Part shown: in pieces, positions 20,415-38,399 of the stretch
How positions within the stretch are numbered: the first letter of the stretch is position 1
Layout: every line of letters starts with the position of its first letter
Assembly (NCBI GenBank): GCA_030581615.1
Contig: JAKTTT010000048.1
Coordinates: 88,153 to 152,152 of the forward strand
From: Alloascoidea africana
Taxonomy: Eukaryota; Ascomycota; Alloascoideomycetes; Alloascoideales; Alloascoideaceae
DNA length: 64,000 nt
Direction of reading: 5' to 3'
The notes under the pieces: model-generated
What the model was told of the DNA's origin: nothing
Seen by the model: only the letters and a program-made list of their open reading frames with translations
Databases searched by the model: none
Translations under genes and position numbers: made by a program

Positions 20415-21221
20415 ATGTTATCATCGAAACCAACAACACCAATGAATTTAACATCACTCGCCAAGATGAATCCTATTGCAATTCCCAAGGATGACCTCAA
20501 GGGGTCCTTCCTCTTTGGAGAGTCTGTTCTCGAGGGATTCGAGACCGAGAGGAGCTTTGTAAAGCAAGAAGAGGATCTTCCTCTAGGTTTTATTGAGTCC
20601 TCGGAGTTGTTTATGAATTCTGAGATTCCAGATGCTCCTGAGTTTACACCTTCTACCGGAACCGTTTCCCCCTTGGAACTCTTACTCCCTTCCTCCGGTT
20701 CTCTCGATGCTGGAGACGCTGGCTTTGACGTGACCCCCATGTTTGGTGAGGTCGAGTTGGGAGAGGCTAATGATTGGCCTTCTCTTTTTGACGACTCGGT
20801 TCATAGTTTTGAAGCACCTACAGAAGAAACAAAATCTTCACTTACACCTGCTCCTGAGCCTGTGACTGTCAAGCCAGTCACACCAAAGTCTAGCCTGAAG
20901 AGAGCTGCTTCCGAAGTTGAAGGATTGATCACTCCCTCAGAATCACTTGAGTCCTCAAGATGCACTAAGAAAGACCATTTGGGAATCATTACCTACAACA
21001 GAAAGAAGAGAAACACTCCTCTACAGGATGTTTCGGTCCCAGAAGGTAGTGACGTCGCCGCTATCAAGCGAGCAAGAAATACAGAAGCTGCTCGTCGTTC
21101 AAGAGCAAGAAAGCTTGAGCGAATGAACCAGTTGGAAGAAAGGATTGATGCTCTCTTAGCAAGGAACTCGGAGCTTGAAGCTGAAGTGATGAGACTGAAG
21201 AAGATTGTTCAGGAGGCTTGA
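20415..21221 (+). CDS. GCN4: Gcn4 bZIP activator of amino-acid biosynthesis
   Basis: Master bZIP transcription activator of general amino-acid control, binding TGASTCA as a dimer. The 268-residue protein starts at the first in-frame ATG (20415); the frame is open 48 nt further but only with a TTG. The N-terminal two thirds are acidic and Pro/Ser-rich, with hydrophobic clusters typical of Gcn4 activation domains. The C-terminus is a bZIP: basic region IKRARNTEAARRSRARK, then a leucine zipper starting MNQLEERIDALL and ending MRLKKIV. S. cerevisiae Gcn4 is 281 residues, with the same architecture. The upstream multi-uORF leader, including a Met-Ala-Cys uORF1, argues for translational induction when eIF2 is phosphorylated. 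It is convergent with RAD30. Confidence 0.95.
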   Translation: MLSSKPTTPMNLTSLAKMNPIAIPKDDLKGSFLFGESVLEGFETERSFVKQEEDLPLGFIESSELFMNSEIPDAPEFTPSTGTVSPLELLLPSSGSLDAGDAGFDVTPMFGEVELGEANDWPSLFDDSVHSFEAPTEETKSSLTPAPEPVTVKPVTPKSSLKRAASEVEGLITPSESLESSRCTKKDHLGIITYNRKKRNTPLQDVSVPEGSDVAAIKRARNTEAARRSRARKLERMNQLEERIDALLARNSELEAEVMRLKKIVQEA

Positions 21222-31487: not shown

Positions 31488-34400
31488 CTATTTAACAATC
31501 TTGCAAACAAGGTCTCCTCCATCAACAGAGTCGCCTTCTTTGACCGAAAATTCAGAAACTTGACCACTAACTGGAGCACTGATAACCATCTCCATCTTCA
31601 TCGCGGAGAGAACAATCACTGGATCCCCCTTCTTTACCTCGCTGCCATCGTGAACCCGGGTTTCAACAACAACACCGGACATTGGAGCTCCAATTTCATT
31701 AGGATTGTGAGCATCGGCTTTGGGTCTGGATACAGTTTCGACTGCGGCATGTTTGTCTTCAACAGTAACCTTTCTCATTTCACCATTGAGTTCAAAATAA
31801 ACCTCTCTGGTACCGGTCTGTGTACTTAGAGCCGAGATTGCCATCAGCTTCACAATCAACGTCTTACCCTTTTCAATTTCAATCCACATCTCCTCTTCAA
31901 TCTCAGGAGGCGCGAGGAAATATCTGGTGGGCAAAATTGACAAATCGCCATACTTTTCGATGAAAGCCCGATATTCTTCAAACACTTTGGGATACATGTT
32001 GTAACTTGCAACATCGGTTTCGCGGATATGACCAAAACGCGAATCCAACTCTTCACGAATAGCTGCCAGATCGTAAGGAGCGAGGGATTTCCCAGGTCGT
32101 TCAAACAGTTTCTCACGCTTGCCTGCAAGCACATCTGTGCGCAATGGTTCGGGGAACCCACCAAAAGGTTGTCCCATCATGCCTTGGAAAAAATCAAGCA
32201 CTGATGCTGGGAAATCAAGAGTATTTGCCCTTGCTCTGACCTCGTCTGCAGTTAGTTGGTTGGAAACCATAAACTGGGCAAGATCACCAACGACTTTGGA
32301 GGTTGGCGTCACCTTCACTATATCTCCTAGCAGATTGTTTGCCTCGATATAAGCCTTTTTTGTTTCGATCCATTTTTCACCAAGGCCAACCTGCTGAGCC
32401 TGGAACAACAGGTTTGTCAATTGTCCACCTGGAATCTCGTGGTCATACACCTCTGGGTCTGGTCCTTTCAAATCAGCTTCAAAGCACGAATACAAAAGCC
32501 TCATTTGAGCCCAATAGTTGTCAATTGCTTTAAGATGGTTAACATCAAGGCCTGTGTCAATGGTTCCCTCAAGTGTGGCAATCAAGGCACTGATGGATGG
32601 TTGAGATGTCATTCCGGAAAGACTGTTTGAGGCAACATCCACAACGTCAGCTCCAGCTTTAGCACAAGCGGCCATAGATGCAACTCCAGTACCAGCCGAA
32701 TCGTGTGTATGAACATGAATCGGGAGGCTGGGATACTTGTCTCGGATGGTGCTAATGAGCAAAGTAGCAGCAGCAGGTTTAAGAGTTCCGGCCATATCTT
32801 TGATACCGAGAATATGGGTCCCCATTGCGACAATGTTATCCACCATCTTCATGTAATAATCCAGGTTATATTTCTTTTTGGGGTTGAGCATATCCCCAGA
32901 GTAGCAAACAGTGGCCTCAACGACACCACCGGCTTTCTTCACAGCATCAACGCCAACCTTAAGTTGGTCCAAGTCGTTTAGAGCGTCAAAGACTCTAAAC
33001 ACATCAACGCCATTTGTCTTGGCCTGCTCGACAAAGTGGTCAATGGCATTGTCAGGGAGGGAAGAGTAGGCGACACCATTAGCACCTCGCAACAGCATCT
33101 GGAATGGGATATTTGGAACAAGCTTTCTGAGCTTTCGTAGTCTTGCCCATGGATCCTCGTGCAAAAATCTAAGCGCCACATCAAAGGTTGCTCCACCCCA
33201 GCACTCGAGTGCAAAGGCATTGCTCAAAGCGTGAGAGGTTTGAGGAGCAACGCCCAACAAATCTGCAGTTCTTACTCTTGTGGCCAAAAGAGATTGGTGT
33301 GCATCTCTCCAAGTTGTGTCCATGATCAAGGTGCCCTTGTATTCCCGAACTGCTTTGGCAAATGCCTCGGGTCCCTTTGAAACGAGAATGTTTCTCCATC
33401 CTGAAGTGCATGGTTCGCTGACATCGATTTCATCACCGGTGGATGGGTCGAACAGTACAGGCAATATAGCTTCGGTTTTGAGCTTTGGGAGGCCGACTTG
33501 GCCTTTAATTGAAGAGCCGTTCACGGCCAGATCAGCAAGGTAGGCCAATAGCTTTTGGGCTCTGTTTTGAGAAGACAGCATTTCAAACAACTTTGGAGTA
33601 TCATCAATAAAAGTAGTCCAGCAGTCGCCGCGAATAAAAGTTTCGTTTGTGAGTAGAGCCAACAGGAAAGGAATGTTTGTTCTAACGCCACGAATACGGA
33701 ACTCGATAAGAGCCCGGATCATTTTTCTCCTTGCAATTTCATAGGTGGCTCCGGAACAGGTACACTTGACCAGCATGGAATCGTAATGTGGGGAAATGAC
33801 CGCACCGGCAAAGTTGTTTCCACCATCGAGACGGACGCCGTTTCCACCGGAGGATCTGTAGACTTCGATCTTGCCAGTGTCTGGTTGGAAATTCTTGGAA
33901 GGATCTTCGGTGGTGATACGGCATTGGATTGCGTAGCCTCGTAGATTGACGCGGTCTTGGGTGAGGCCGAGCTGGGGCAGCGAAGCGCCAGCAGCAATTT
34001 GGATTTGAGCGGCAACGAGATCGACGCCTGTGATTTCTTCAGTGATTGTGTGTTCGACCTGGATTCTTGGGTTGATTTCAATAAAGTAGTGTCTGTTTTG
34101 CTCATCGACGAGGAACTCTGCTGTTCCGGCGTTTCTATAGTTGACTGAATTTGCCAGAGTGACGGCATCGGCCAATATAGCATCTCGAACATGCTTGGGC
34201 AATTTGCCAGCGGGAGCCAGTTCAACGACTTTCTGGTGTCTTCTCTGCACGGAACAATCACGTTCGAAAAGATGGATGCAGTTGCCTCTTCCGTCAGCCA
34301 GAAGCTGCACTTCGATATGCTTAGGTTTGTCTAAGAATCTCTCAATAAACACTGTACCATTACCAAAAGAGGTTTTTGCTTCGGACACGGCTCTGTTGAA

Positions 34401-35012
34401 GGCATCTCCAATGTCATCGCCCTCTCTAACGACCCGCATGCCTCTTCCACCGCCGCCGAAAGCGGCCTTTATGATAACGGGATAGCCGTACTCTTGCACA
34501 AACTTGTCGGCGTCTTCAACCGATTCAACGGGGCCAGGAGTACCTGGGATGACGGGGACTTTGTTTGCAATTGCCAGTTTTCTGGCGGAAACCTTATCTC
34601 CCACAGCGTCGATTACGTTTGCTGGAGGGCCGACCCATTTGATACCAGCCTCCTCGACTTTTTTCGCAAACTCTGAGTTTTCAGAGAGGAAGCCGTAGCC
34701 CGGGTGGATCATGTTTGCGCCGTGCTGATGGGCAATTTTGATAATTTCGTCGATTTGCAGATAGGCCTGGACCGGGGTGTACTGATTGCGCTTGCCAATG
34801 ACGTAGGCCTCGTCGGCCTTGAGCCTGTGCATTGACAATCTGTCTTCATGGGAGTAGATAGCTATAGTGTGGAGGGACAATTCGTGGGCGGACCTAAAGA
34901 TACGGATTGCGATTTCGCCTCTGTTTGCTACGAGGACCTTGTTCATGGAGCCCAGCAGGGCGCTGTCGCTGCGGATGTGCCCAAAAGTCGGGACTTTCGG
35001 GGTGCTTGTCAT
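31488..35012 (-). CDS. PYC1: pyruvate carboxylase
   Basis: Biotin enzyme converting pyruvate + HCO3- + ATP to oxaloacetate; cytosolic in yeasts. The product is 1174 residues (S. cerevisiae 1178). The start is the ATG at 35012 (MTSTPKVPTFGHIR); the frame is open 60 nt further upstream but begins only with TTG. The biotin carboxylase domain opens NKVLVANRGEIAIRIFRSA and carries the ATP-grasp FGGGGRGMRVV. The carboxyltransferase begins near LIMDTTWRDAHQSLLATR. The biotin attachment site is VLSAMKMEM near the C-terminus, all as expected. With PCK1 it forms the bypass from pyruvate to PEP. Confidence 0.97.
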   Translation of the reverse strand: MTSTPKVPTFGHIRSDSALLGSMNKVLVANRGEIAIRIFRSAHELSLHTIAIYSHEDRLSMHRLKADEAYVIGKRNQYTPVQAYLQIDEIIKIAHQHGANMIHPGYGFLSENSEFAKKVEEAGIKWVGPPANVIDAVGDKVSARKLAIANKVPVIPGTPGPVESVEDADKFVQEYGYPVIIKAAFGGGGRGMRVVREGDDIGDAFNRAVSEAKTSFGNGTVFIERFLDKPKHIEVQLLADGRGNCIHLFERDCSVQRRHQKVVELAPAGKLPKHVRDAILADAVTLANSVNYRNAGTAEFLVDEQNRHYFIEINPRIQVEHTITEEITGVDLVAAQIQIAAGASLPQLGLTQDRVNLRGYAIQCRITTEDPSKNFQPDTGKIEVYRSSGGNGVRLDGGNNFAGAVISPHYDSMLVKCTCSGATYEIARRKMIRALIEFRIRGVRTNIPFLLALLTNETFIRGDCWTTFIDDTPKLFEMLSSQNRAQKLLAYLADLAVNGSSIKGQVGLPKLKTEAILPVLFDPSTGDEIDVSEPCTSGWRNILVSKGPEAFAKAVREYKGTLIMDTTWRDAHQSLLATRVRTADLLGVAPQTSHALSNAFALECWGGATFDVALRFLHEDPWARLRKLRKLVPNIPFQMLLRGANGVAYSSLPDNAIDHFVEQAKTNGVDVFRVFDALNDLDQLKVGVDAVKKAGGVVEATVCYSGDMLNPKKKYNLDYYMKMVDNIVAMGTHILGIKDMAGTLKPAAATLLISTIRDKYPSLPIHVHTHDSAGTGVASMAACAKAGADVVDVASNSLSGMTSQPSISALIATLEGTIDTGLDVNHLKAIDNYWAQMRLLYSCFEADLKGPDPEVYDHEIPGGQLTNLLFQAQQVGLGEKWIETKKAYIEANNLLGDIVKVTPTSKVVGDLAQFMVSNQLTADEVRARANTLDFPASVLDFFQGMMGQPFGGFPEPLRTDVLAGKREKLFERPGKSLAPYDLAAIREELDSRFGHIRETDVASYNMYPKVFEEYRAFIEKYGDLSILPTRYFLAPPEIEEEMWIEIEKGKTLIVKLMAISALSTQTGTREVYFELNGEMRKVTVEDKHAAVETVSRPKADAHNPNEIGAPMSGVVVETRVHDGSEVKKGDPVIVLSAMKMEMVISAPVSGQVSEFSVKEGDSVDGGDLVCKIVK

Positions 35013-35666: not shown

Positions 35667-36458
35667 CTCTGCGCTCAGCACTCGCCAATCTCAATCTTGA
35701 GCAGCCCATTGTTGCTTGCCCCGACCCCAGATAAATCGTCCCGACGTGTAGGGACTGCGGTCCGCACAGCAACTGCCATTTGCAAACCGTCCAATTGGCA
35801 CACGCCCGCACATTCTCTCGCTGAGCAGAAAGCTGGGGTTCGTAAAAGTGACCAAACAATCCTAGCTGTCAAAGTAAAAATTTTTCCTCGTGCTGGCTGA
35901 CAGCTCACGTAGATAACCGCTAACCGCTAACGACTGCTCTCCCCACAATTTCCCTTTCCACGCCGCCAAAACCCGCGCGGCCGCGTGCTCTGGGCCCGTG
36001 CTGAGGAACCAACAACTGCTCGTCCAGCTCTTCTGGAACCCGTCTGTTCGCCGACTCCTCCCAGAACAGCCAAATCTCCGTTTTGTGCCAGCTGTTTCTG
36101 GCGAATGGGCGTCCAGCTAGTTGCGCGGGTGCAGCTTGCACAGCTGCAACGTGGTCATTACAGGAACATCCCTCGGCCTAATTGTACCACATCCCGCCAC
36201 ACACCCGCCCACACTTGACAGAATCGTCCGCTCTTTCGCCCAAACAGGCAACTGCGTACGTAATGGCGCATTTGCCCACAGCCCAATTTGCCCGATCAGG
36301 AACGCTGCATGCTGCTCTCGTGGCAAAAAAAAAAGATCTGCTTACGTGTCAGGTTACCCGGTGTTTACTCATAAAAAGCCCCAACCGATGATCATCCTCC
36401 TCCATCTTTTTCCTTAGGCTGCCACAAAAACAAAGACTTATAAAAGAACCAGTCCCTT

Positions 36459-36523: not shown

Positions 36524-37596
36524 ATGATGGGCGCTTCTACTGATGGCTCACGTACCTCTGAGCCCTCCCCGATACCTTCCGTGCTAGACCCATCATCTGT
36601 TGCTTGGCCGTCCACGGACAACAAGAGGAAAGATGATGACTCCTCAATGATCCTGCTTAATGGCTCTCTGGAGCCCCGCAAGCGTGCTCGAACCGACGAT
36701 GAAAAAGAACAGCGGAGAGTCCAACGTATAATGAGAAATCGCCAGGCTGCCCACGCTTCCAGAGAAAAGAAACGTAAACACATGGAGGACCTAGAGTCCC
36801 AGTGCTCGCATTTGACTACAGAAAACAGATTGCTGCAGGATGAACTGGACAAGACCAAGATAAAGCAGATCTCTTTGATCAGACAAACAAATTCCATGGT
36901 TAGCCAAATCAAACAATTAACGTCCATTATTCAGCAGGCAACTGGCATCAAAATCCCAGAAGTCGAATTCAATACCCCAACCATATCTCTGAAAAGAGTC
37001 CCTTCTTCCCCCATCCTCTCCCCTTCCCCTGGCTCCTCCGGTTCTTCTCCCCCATGTATCGATTCAGACTCGTCCTCCAGTTCTGTTGTCACCCCTCCTT
37101 CATCATCAGACTCCTCGGATCTGGACCTCATGTCCTCCAAGCTTTTGTCCGGTAATGAGCAAACCTCCTCCAATCTTGCCAAGCGACCGCGTTATCCAGC
37201 AGAGATAATGCAACGCTTTAATGCCTACCCGCTGCGTCGGCTCTTGAACAAGATGAGAGTGTCGTTTGCAATCAATTACCTTTTGATTTGCTTTTTGATG
37301 GCCCAATTGATGCCAATCTTGACAACGAGATTTTTTCAACAGCATTTCTTGAAAAGCTTGGTCCACAACAAACAGGCAATGAACAACTACTTGAACTCTC
37401 AACTCCAAACCTACTCGAGGAAAAAGACTTGCCAGAAGTTGAACAAAGAACTACCCCCGATGAACCTGGATCTAACCAATCATCTATCTTCGACGAGCTA
37501 TTTTTTGAAAAAGACTTCGAATTATTTGCAAGTGCTGAGAGCAGAATTACAAAGCCGATCTTTAAGGAAGAACTCCTGACCAGTACTAGCGTTTAG
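36524..37596 (+). CDS. HAC1: Hac1 unfolded-protein-response bZIP, with Ire1-type intron
   Basis: bZIP activator of the unfolded protein response. The start is the first in-frame ATG, 36524 (MMGAST). The basic region RRVQRIMRNRQAAHASREKK and a zipper beginning MEDLESQCSHL match Hac1. Unspliced, the frame ends at 37579 (351 residues) with a hydrophobic tail. Removing 37200-37231 (32 nt, two Ire1-type loops) shifts the frame and gives exons 36524-37199 and 37232-37596 (346 residues). The new tail starts at RYPAASALEQDESVV and is acidic and Asp/Phe/Leu-rich (QLPFDLLFDGPID, FDELFFEKDFELF), the character of a Hac1 activation domain. The two overlapping C-terminal frames are direct evidence for regulated splicing. 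Short Hac1 introns are known in other yeasts. Confidence 0.93.
37200..37231 (+). other. Ire1-dependent nonconventional HAC1 intron, 32 nt
   Basis: Ire1 cuts CNG^CNGN in seven-nt loops. The 5' site is CAG^CAGA (37197-37203) closed by the perfect stem TTATC/GATAA. The 3' site is CCG^CTGC (37229-37235) closed by GCCTAC/GTCGGC with one mismatch. There are no GT-AG borders or branch site. The length is not a multiple of three, so splicing switches the C-terminal frame. Confidence 0.88.
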
Positions 37597-38399
37597 TATT
37601 GCTACTACCAATTTTTTTTTTGTTAAACTTGGTCTACTGCTTACACTCTCTAGCGCTACAATGCAATCGAAACTAACCGCTAGTGTTTGAAACGGTCTCT
37701 TTTGTTGTTTTCTTTTGGATTAATGGCTTCAAAGGCGCGTTACCTAAAACTGCGACGGGACCATTATCCGAAGACTCTTGAGAGAACATTTCATGTACTT
37801 GGCCTATTGTTCCGATGCATTAGCGCTATTGTTGAAAGCATTGTCCAGGTTTCAGAAATTTTGTATGGCAAGACTAAACCACACTATAGGGTTGTTTTTT
37901 TCTTTTGGTACGCTAATCATTCATTTTCACATTTTGGAATTTTTTGACGTTTTAATGAGGTTTTATATATTTATATTACTGTATTTTTTTTTCTCTCTCT
38001 CTCTCTGCTTTATCTCTGATCTATACATATATACTTTTAGTCTTCATGTTCAAAGCTGATAAATATGCAAGGGATACATTTGTTGGCGATTTTGTTCATT
38101 AATTTAATGTTTCAATTTCTTTAAGTTATTCGTACACAGCAGATCCAAGTTGTATTCAAACCTATACAGGACTTTTATAAAAAACGCATTATCTGGAGCT
38201 TTGTTCATTAGCAAAAAAAAAAAAAAAAAAAGTAGCAACAAAAATACATTAAAAAGTTTCAAGTTCATCCCTTCTCCTAAAGATGCAATTTGCATCTTTT
38301 GGAAACGAAACACATGTATCATAATCTAATAAAAAAGCTTAACTCGTTATGCAAAAAAAGATTAAAAACAAAAAAAAAAATATATCATTGTAAAGGAGA

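Follow-up and report, generated by a model that had tools for sequence, protein, structure and literature searches.

The window analysed here, a stretch of 64,000 nucleotides from Alloascoidea africana (contig JAKTTT010000048.1, positions 88,153 to 152,152), carries a bZIP gene whose coding region is interrupted by a predicted Ire1-type intron (Table 1). Throughout, C48 denotes this window copy, and C19, C8, C6 and C2 denote its paralogs, after the contigs on which they lie. Exon 1 opens with two adjacent ATGs, either of which may be the start, and we take the basic region of the bZIP to be of the HAC1 type. A search of solved structures with the window protein returned four matches, namely, three CREB bZIP chains and one uncharacterized protein; a plasmid search with the same protein gave no match.

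Table 1. Features of the HAC1-like locus in the window
Feature	Position	Strand	Basis
TACGTG, candidate UPRE-2-like site, 181 nt upstream of the ATG	36343..36348	+	motif likeness
HAC1-like exon 1, bZIP domain and linker	36524..37199	+	bZIP_2 E 5.1e-10, bZIP_1 E 1.4e-9; paralogs C19, C8, C6 and C2
Unspliced reading frame, 351 aa, with basic 126-aa tail	36524..37579	+	translation
Exon-exon closing helix, 5' arm	37155..37186, core 37173-37183	+	RNAduplex -22.8 kcal/mol
5' splice-site hairpin (predicted), 8 stem pairs	37189..37211, loop 37197-37203	+	pattern from five copies
Predicted Ire1-type intron, 32 nt	37200..37231	+	twin loops, frames, paralog covariance model
3' splice-site hairpin (predicted), stem 5/6 pairs	37223..37241, loop 37229-37235	+	stem pairing
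Exon 2, spliced frame, acidic tail (121 aa including the junction, pI 4.05)	37232..37596	+	translation
Exon-exon closing helix, 3' arm	37240..37275, core 37243-37254	+	RNAduplex
Membrane-like 19-residue segment FAINYLLICFLMAQLMPIL, unspliced frame	37265..37321	+	Kyte-Doolittle mean 2.0
Two-part 3'UTR element GGCGCGTT...GCGAC, candidate Ire1-docking (3'BE-like)	37734..37756	+	recurrence in four intron-bearing paralogs

A sequence-only reading of this DNA had proposed that two CNGCNGN loops bracket a 32-nt intron. Both loops, CAG^CAGA and CCG^CTGC, lie where that reading placed them, and 32 nt separate the predicted cuts. The stem of the first, TTATC/GATAA, is present and in fact extends to eight standard pairs (37189-37196 with 37204-37211), one of which is G-U. 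The stem of the second, GCCTAC/GTCGGC, also exists, but it contains a U-C mismatch (five of six pairs) that had gone unmentioned. When a hairpin was defined as CNGCNGN closed by a base pair, with 5/6 or more of the stem positions paired, the window held seven on the plus strand and six on the minus strand; only once, counting both strands, did two of them form a close pair with starts 15 to 60 nt apart. Over 100 dinucleotide shuffles of the window, such pairs averaged 0.02 per shuffle, and no shuffle held more than 1.

The sizes given in that reading were likewise borne out: the unspliced product has 351 residues and the spliced product 346, and exon 2 runs for 365 nt to 37596. As had also been claimed, excision exchanges one kind of tail for another, the pI falling from 10.45 to 4.05 (26 acidic and 7 basic residues in the spliced tail) and the Kyte-Doolittle (KD) maximum from 2.0 in the unspliced form to 0.65 in the spliced form. 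The long open frame downstream of the intron, which had been thought hard to explain otherwise, is indeed unusual, since among 13 further open reading frames of the window, treated as genes for this comparison, none of 7375 start points in the same relative frame stays open for 120 codons. That the unspliced frame is open is less remarkable: when the spliced tail was redrawn with synonymous codons, 2024 of 20000 versions left that frame open for as long, and in the opposite frame direction, 119 of 7453 start points in the same 13 genes are open for 114 codons.

A search with the window protein through the whole genome (23.18 Mb in 138 contigs) showed that this gene has company. Twelve candidates were scored and eight places listed, with C8 listed twice and counted once; five are HAC1-like genes, including C48, and two weak candidates were left out of the count, one on contig C26 (E 0.0016, with two stops) and one on contig C45 (E 0.0023, the Gcn4-like gene). 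The proposal of a HAC1 gene with an Ire1-type intron holds, but it was incomplete, as the window copy is one of five paralogs. A pattern for the 5' hairpin, composed from the five copies themselves, occurs with up to two mismatches at exactly five places in the 23.18 Mb, all of them HAC1-like, and its reversed control occurs nowhere. The window contains a further bZIP gene (20415-21221, plus strand), which we presume to be Gcn4-like and of which a second copy lies on contig C45.

Four of the five copies share the rest of the anatomy. The predicted introns are 32 nt in C48, 26 nt in C19, 29 nt in C8 and 41 nt in C6, every length being 2 mod 3, and all four spliced products end in an acidic tail (pI 4.05 to 4.15). 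A closing helix as stable as the native one arose in none of 500 mononucleotide shuffles for C48, C19 and C6 and in 4 of 500 for C8. The 3' sites of the paralogs, chosen as the nearest CNGCNG that aligns with the window site, are less secure. Their stems are weak (4/7 counted positions in C8, C19 and C6, and 5/7 in C48), so that the three would fail the 5/6-pair rule applied in the window; moreover, within about 1 kb there are farther candidates (three in C8, five in C6, one in C48 and none in C19), and some of the farther ones in C8 and C6 equal the chosen sites in pairing.

Two long overlapping open frames would also be compatible with a programmed frameshift, and it might be supposed that the frames are joined by ribosomal frameshifting, or by a spliceosomal intron, rather than by Ire1. 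We regard this as barely credible, given that four paralogs have the loops, the closing helix and the predicted cuts at corresponding places despite their different intron lengths and that the predicted introns begin with CAG and finish with CCG or CTG, not GT..AG. The Ire1-type reading is supported by the conjunction of the bZIP domain, the twin loops, the closing helix, the acidic frame switch and an IRE1 gene in the same genome.

Covariance models bear on the same point. The Rfam model of the Hac1/Xbp1 intron, RF04247, aligns to the window site over all 72 of its positions, spanning the closing helix, and scores 21.4 bits (E 0.088 in a search space of 231 bases). This is below its gathering score, at which it finds no match in the window; that cut-off of 41 bits is a limit of detection and not a biological trait. 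Genome-wide at a loose limit, the model recovered C19 (36.7 bits), C8 (24.9 bits) and C6 (24.5 bits), all under 41, and listed an unrelated place on contig C25 (20.2 bits) but not the window copy; the same limit also gave matches in 7 of 14 control genomes. A second model, built from the C19, C8 and C6 introns without the window and run on the window together with the C2 locus (67,001 bases), placed the window site at 48.2 bits with an E value of 1.1e-10, the better of two matches up to E 10; the other, in C2, reached 18.6 bits (E 0.012). These E values are rough, as the calibration was short. What the match shows is that the window site shares the anatomy of the family, as distinct from being spliced.

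The apparent wealth of copies could be an artifact of contamination or of a mixed assembly, and other genes are indeed duplicated, namely, pyruvate carboxylase (88% identity) and the Gcn4-like gene. We consider this highly unlikely: the IRE1 RNase domain was found once, the 5' hairpin is nearly identical across the five copies, and C19 and C6 are followed on their own strand by the same ribosomal-protein-like gene, as would fit duplication. This last is a frame of 135 codons about 1.1 kb downstream of C19 and about 5.1 kb downstream of C6, with identical protein and 339 of 405 bases identical, which we take to be ribosomal protein uS9. Together with the pyruvate carboxylase pair, it fits a segmental or whole-genome duplication. 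The HAC1 copies themselves are old, because exon 1 identity among them is 40.6 to 56.4% and the agreement of codons at identical exon 1 residues is near the expectation from codon usage alone. A bZIP tree left the branching order of the five copies unresolved (three of four inner branches open).

Several observations were made alongside. The window pyruvate carboxylase gene (31488-35012, minus strand) has its second copy on C2 at 318953-322396, about 67 kb from the HAC1-like gene there. An alignment of this pair indicates that CTG encodes leucine, since other leucine codons stand opposite 15 of the 16 CTG codons counted in the window gene and opposite all 10 in its paralog, two CTG-CTG pairs having been left out each way. 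No 5.8S rRNA match was found in the assembly at E 0.001, and no tRNA was found in the window. Relatives elsewhere were sought in collections not meant for fungi, where 304 pattern stretches in bacterial and archaeal genomes and 52 in viral contigs were returned and none was confirmed; the exact hairpin had no occurrence in the viral contigs. The C6 copy is much longer than the others (674 residues when spliced, counted from the first in-frame ATG) and has serine-rich and alanine-rich low-complexity stretches. About 88 nt upstream of the ATG of the C8 gene lies TGATGACGTGGCA, which resembles a UPR element; autoregulation of C8 through this candidate site is possible. The TACGTG upstream of the window gene is similarly a candidate site, of the UPRE-2-like kind.

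Downstream of their stop codons, C48, C19, C8 and C6 also share a pattern consisting of GGCGCGKT, 4 to 10 bases and GCGAC. It has one match in the window (shuffle mean, 0.01), and it is not rare in the genome as a whole, where it has five matches, four of them at HAC1 copies, and where the reversed control also has five. As the pattern was derived from the same four copies, has one other match and is equaled by its reversed control, the evidence for the element lies in its recurrence and in 31 identical bases shared there by C19 and C6. A scan for words shared between the C48 3'UTR and those of C19, C8 and C6 did not single it out; its 12-base score of 7 is within the range of the shuffle bests (6 to 8), and the sole better word is a run of T. 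Nor are the predicted folds mostly remarkable, mononucleotide shuffles folding equally well in 29 of 200 cases for C48, 82 of 200 for C19, 3 of 200 for C8 and 15 of 200 for C6. In this respect, the element may differ from the 3'BE of HAC1, which part of PMC6116095 describes as a pair of short conserved motifs lying side by side within a 3'UTR stem-loop; the likeness to that description is in the pairing of two short neighboring motifs.

The machinery that such transcripts would need is encoded in the genome. The single IRE1 match combines kinase and RNase domains, and it contains a basic-glycine stretch, KKRRKRGTRGGKK, resembling the fungal [+]-box, which a passage of PMC4279078 ties to 3'BE docking. 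There are two tRNA-ligase genes, on contigs C61 and C18, each with RNA-ligase and phosphodiesterase domains; they are 34% identical over 828 residues, and the C18 gene also has a kinase domain. One of these two divergent ligases could be a specialist for HAC1 exon joining.

Our reading, which we hold to be very probable, is that the window gene belongs to a set of four HAC1 paralogs predicted to undergo splicing by Ire1, alongside which stands a fifth copy, seemingly splice-dead. What is observed directly is the sequence anatomy, the fact that it recurs in the paralogs, and the existence of IRE1 and ligase genes in this genome; from the anatomy, we infer that the C48 transcript is spliced, and cleavage by Ire1, ligation, dependence on Ire1 and activity of the acidic tail are predictions of the same kind. 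Upon ER stress, Ire1 would cut both loops, the exon-exon helix would hold the two ends together while the 32-nt intron is released, and a Trl1-type ligase would join the exons. Through the change of frame, the basic tail and its membrane-like segment would give way to an acidic tail of the activation type.

The fifth copy, C2, retains the 5' hairpin with one stem mismatch and appears to have lost the capacity for splicing. No CNGCNG candidate for a 3' loop was found in the stretch scanned, no closing helix emerged when a 32-nt intron was assumed (143 of 500 shuffles being equally stable), the two-part 3'UTR pattern is absent from the locus, and none of the alternative frames is strongly acidic. 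These losses, and a branch that is the longest in the HAC1 group of the bZIP tree, would suit a pseudogene in decay, as opposed to one that has become fixed as an unspliced gene. We think that this is plausible, albeit somewhat short of probable, for C2 has kept an intact bZIP region, and its frame remains open for 316 codons, 171 of them past the old 5' splice site. The customary KD limit for a hydrophobic segment is 1.6, and the best stretch in the C2 tail, at 1.59, is just below it.

The KD maximum of the unspliced tail is 2.0 in C48 and 1.92 in C8 (0.73 in the spliced form of the latter), and in these two copies the hydrophobic segment is restricted to the unspliced frame; this is not so in C19 and C6, half of the intron-bearing set, whose unspliced tails are short and reach maxima of 0.55 and 0.59. 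It may be that such tails are a by-product, in that an acidic LPFDLLFDG read one base along yields leucine and isoleucine codons, and that the unspliced protein is unstable or unused. On this we are evenly divided. LPFDLLFDG is common to the spliced frames of C48 and C8 and is overlapped by the membrane-like segment, the unspliced tail of C8, with a pI of 6.95, is not basic, and synonymous draws of C8 are equally hydrophobic in 2063 of 20000 cases and equally open in 8741 of 20000; when other window genes are read with a one-base shift, a KD of 2.0 is attained by 4 of 401 open runs. For C48, however, equal openness combined with a KD of at least 2.0 was rare, arising in 123 of 20000 cases when codons were drawn synonymously and in 27 of 20000 when they were permuted within the tail, and none of 7453 start points in other genes had both equal open length and such a KD. 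Within a block shared by C48 and C8, the same codon is used at 8 of 10 identical residues (P 0.0037 if saturated, for a block chosen after it had been seen), and C8 matches the unspliced window protein along residues 197-270, a stretch that includes some 45 residues of the tail (42%, E 4.0e-7). The long open tail kept by C2 also speaks against a mere by-product.

So, too, does the lack of a translation-blocking pairing between intron and 5'UTR. With the 200 bases before the ATG standing in for the 5'UTR, shuffled introns paired as well as the native one in 377 of 500 cases for C48, 322 for C19, 241 for C8 and 170 for C6. The S. cerevisiae type of translational block thus was found in none of the four copies, nor is it expected of short introns, and the unspliced mRNA may accordingly be translated. 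The support for selection on the hydrophobic tails is mixed, as the contrast between C48 (123 of 20000) and C8 (2063 of 20000) illustrates, and it is less certain that the C48 and C8 tails bring mRNA or protein to the ER. One could go further and imagine an unfolded protein response divided among four HAC1 genes spliced by Ire1, two or more of them with a membrane-seeking unspliced tail that works like those of XBP1u or bZIP60u, with 3'UTR docking and nascent-chain targeting both in use and with an unspliceable fifth gene whose hydrophobic-tailed, Hac1u-like protein restrains the others; taken whole, this scenario seems to us rather unlikely.

On its own, the C48 intron is ordinary. What is new is the HAC1 family, with two membrane-like unspliced tails and an apparently splice-dead copy. 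Four intact-looking substrates (26 to 41 nt) and one natural loss offer an internal comparison of what Ire1 requires, the broken copy being one from which the 3' loop, the closing helix and the 3'UTR element are missing together. The hydrophobic unspliced tails, for their part, bring within reach, in a fungus, the question whether nascent-chain targeting had more than one origin.

To our knowledge, the Ire1-HAC1 switch has been described with one HAC1 gene per yeast. Among the sources covered by a literature search, none named HAC1 paralogs in a yeast; the main survey of these introns (Hooks and Griffiths-Jones 2011) may be relevant here. A passage of PMC6116095 calls the HAC1 gene of C. glabrata single, and the "two HAC1" in a part of PMC8071499 are splice variants. 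The HAC1 genes of budding yeasts and filamentous fungi, as presented in portions of PMC6222058, PMC10608004 and PMC8071499, have the same twin loops, C-terminal frame switch, bZIP and short intron, with lengths of 19 nt in C. albicans, 20 nt in V. dahliae, 29 nt in Y. lipolytica and 252 nt in S. cerevisiae; the earlier placing of the 32-nt intron near the short forms and far from the long ones agrees with the values in those portions of PMC6222058 and PMC10608004. V. dahliae has a long unspliced tail too (Hac1u, 526 aa, in the account of PMC8071499). No paralog family figures in the portions of these three sources that describe known HAC1 systems, whereas here a single genome has four intron-bearing copies and one without a 3' site.

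For the hydrophobic tails, the closest likenesses lie outside the fungi. Hydrophobic region 2 of metazoan XBP1u, as a section of PMC9217131 describes it, is likewise a hydrophobic segment in the unspliced frame that is removed on splicing; the mRNA here differs in also having a candidate yeast-type 3'UTR element, and ER targeting and translational pausing would be predictions in its case. Plant bZIP60u likewise has a membrane segment in its unspliced form that is lost on splicing (parts of PMC4891664 and PMC4279078), whereas here the gene is fungal and, among the four copies with an intron, a strongly hydrophobic unspliced tail is confined to C48 and C8. Docking through the [+]-box and 3'BE is contrasted, in the same part of PMC4279078, with the hydrophobic signals that unspliced transcripts of XBP1 and of plants carry, and nascent-chain targeting is there said to be known in animals and suggested for plants. 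Among fungi, a case in which the unspliced mRNA or protein may have a role is already provided by the HAC1 homolog of U. maydis, for whose unspliced form a regulatory role has been proposed (PMC8071499, in part); in that fungus, both forms come from one gene, whereas C2 would be a separate gene.
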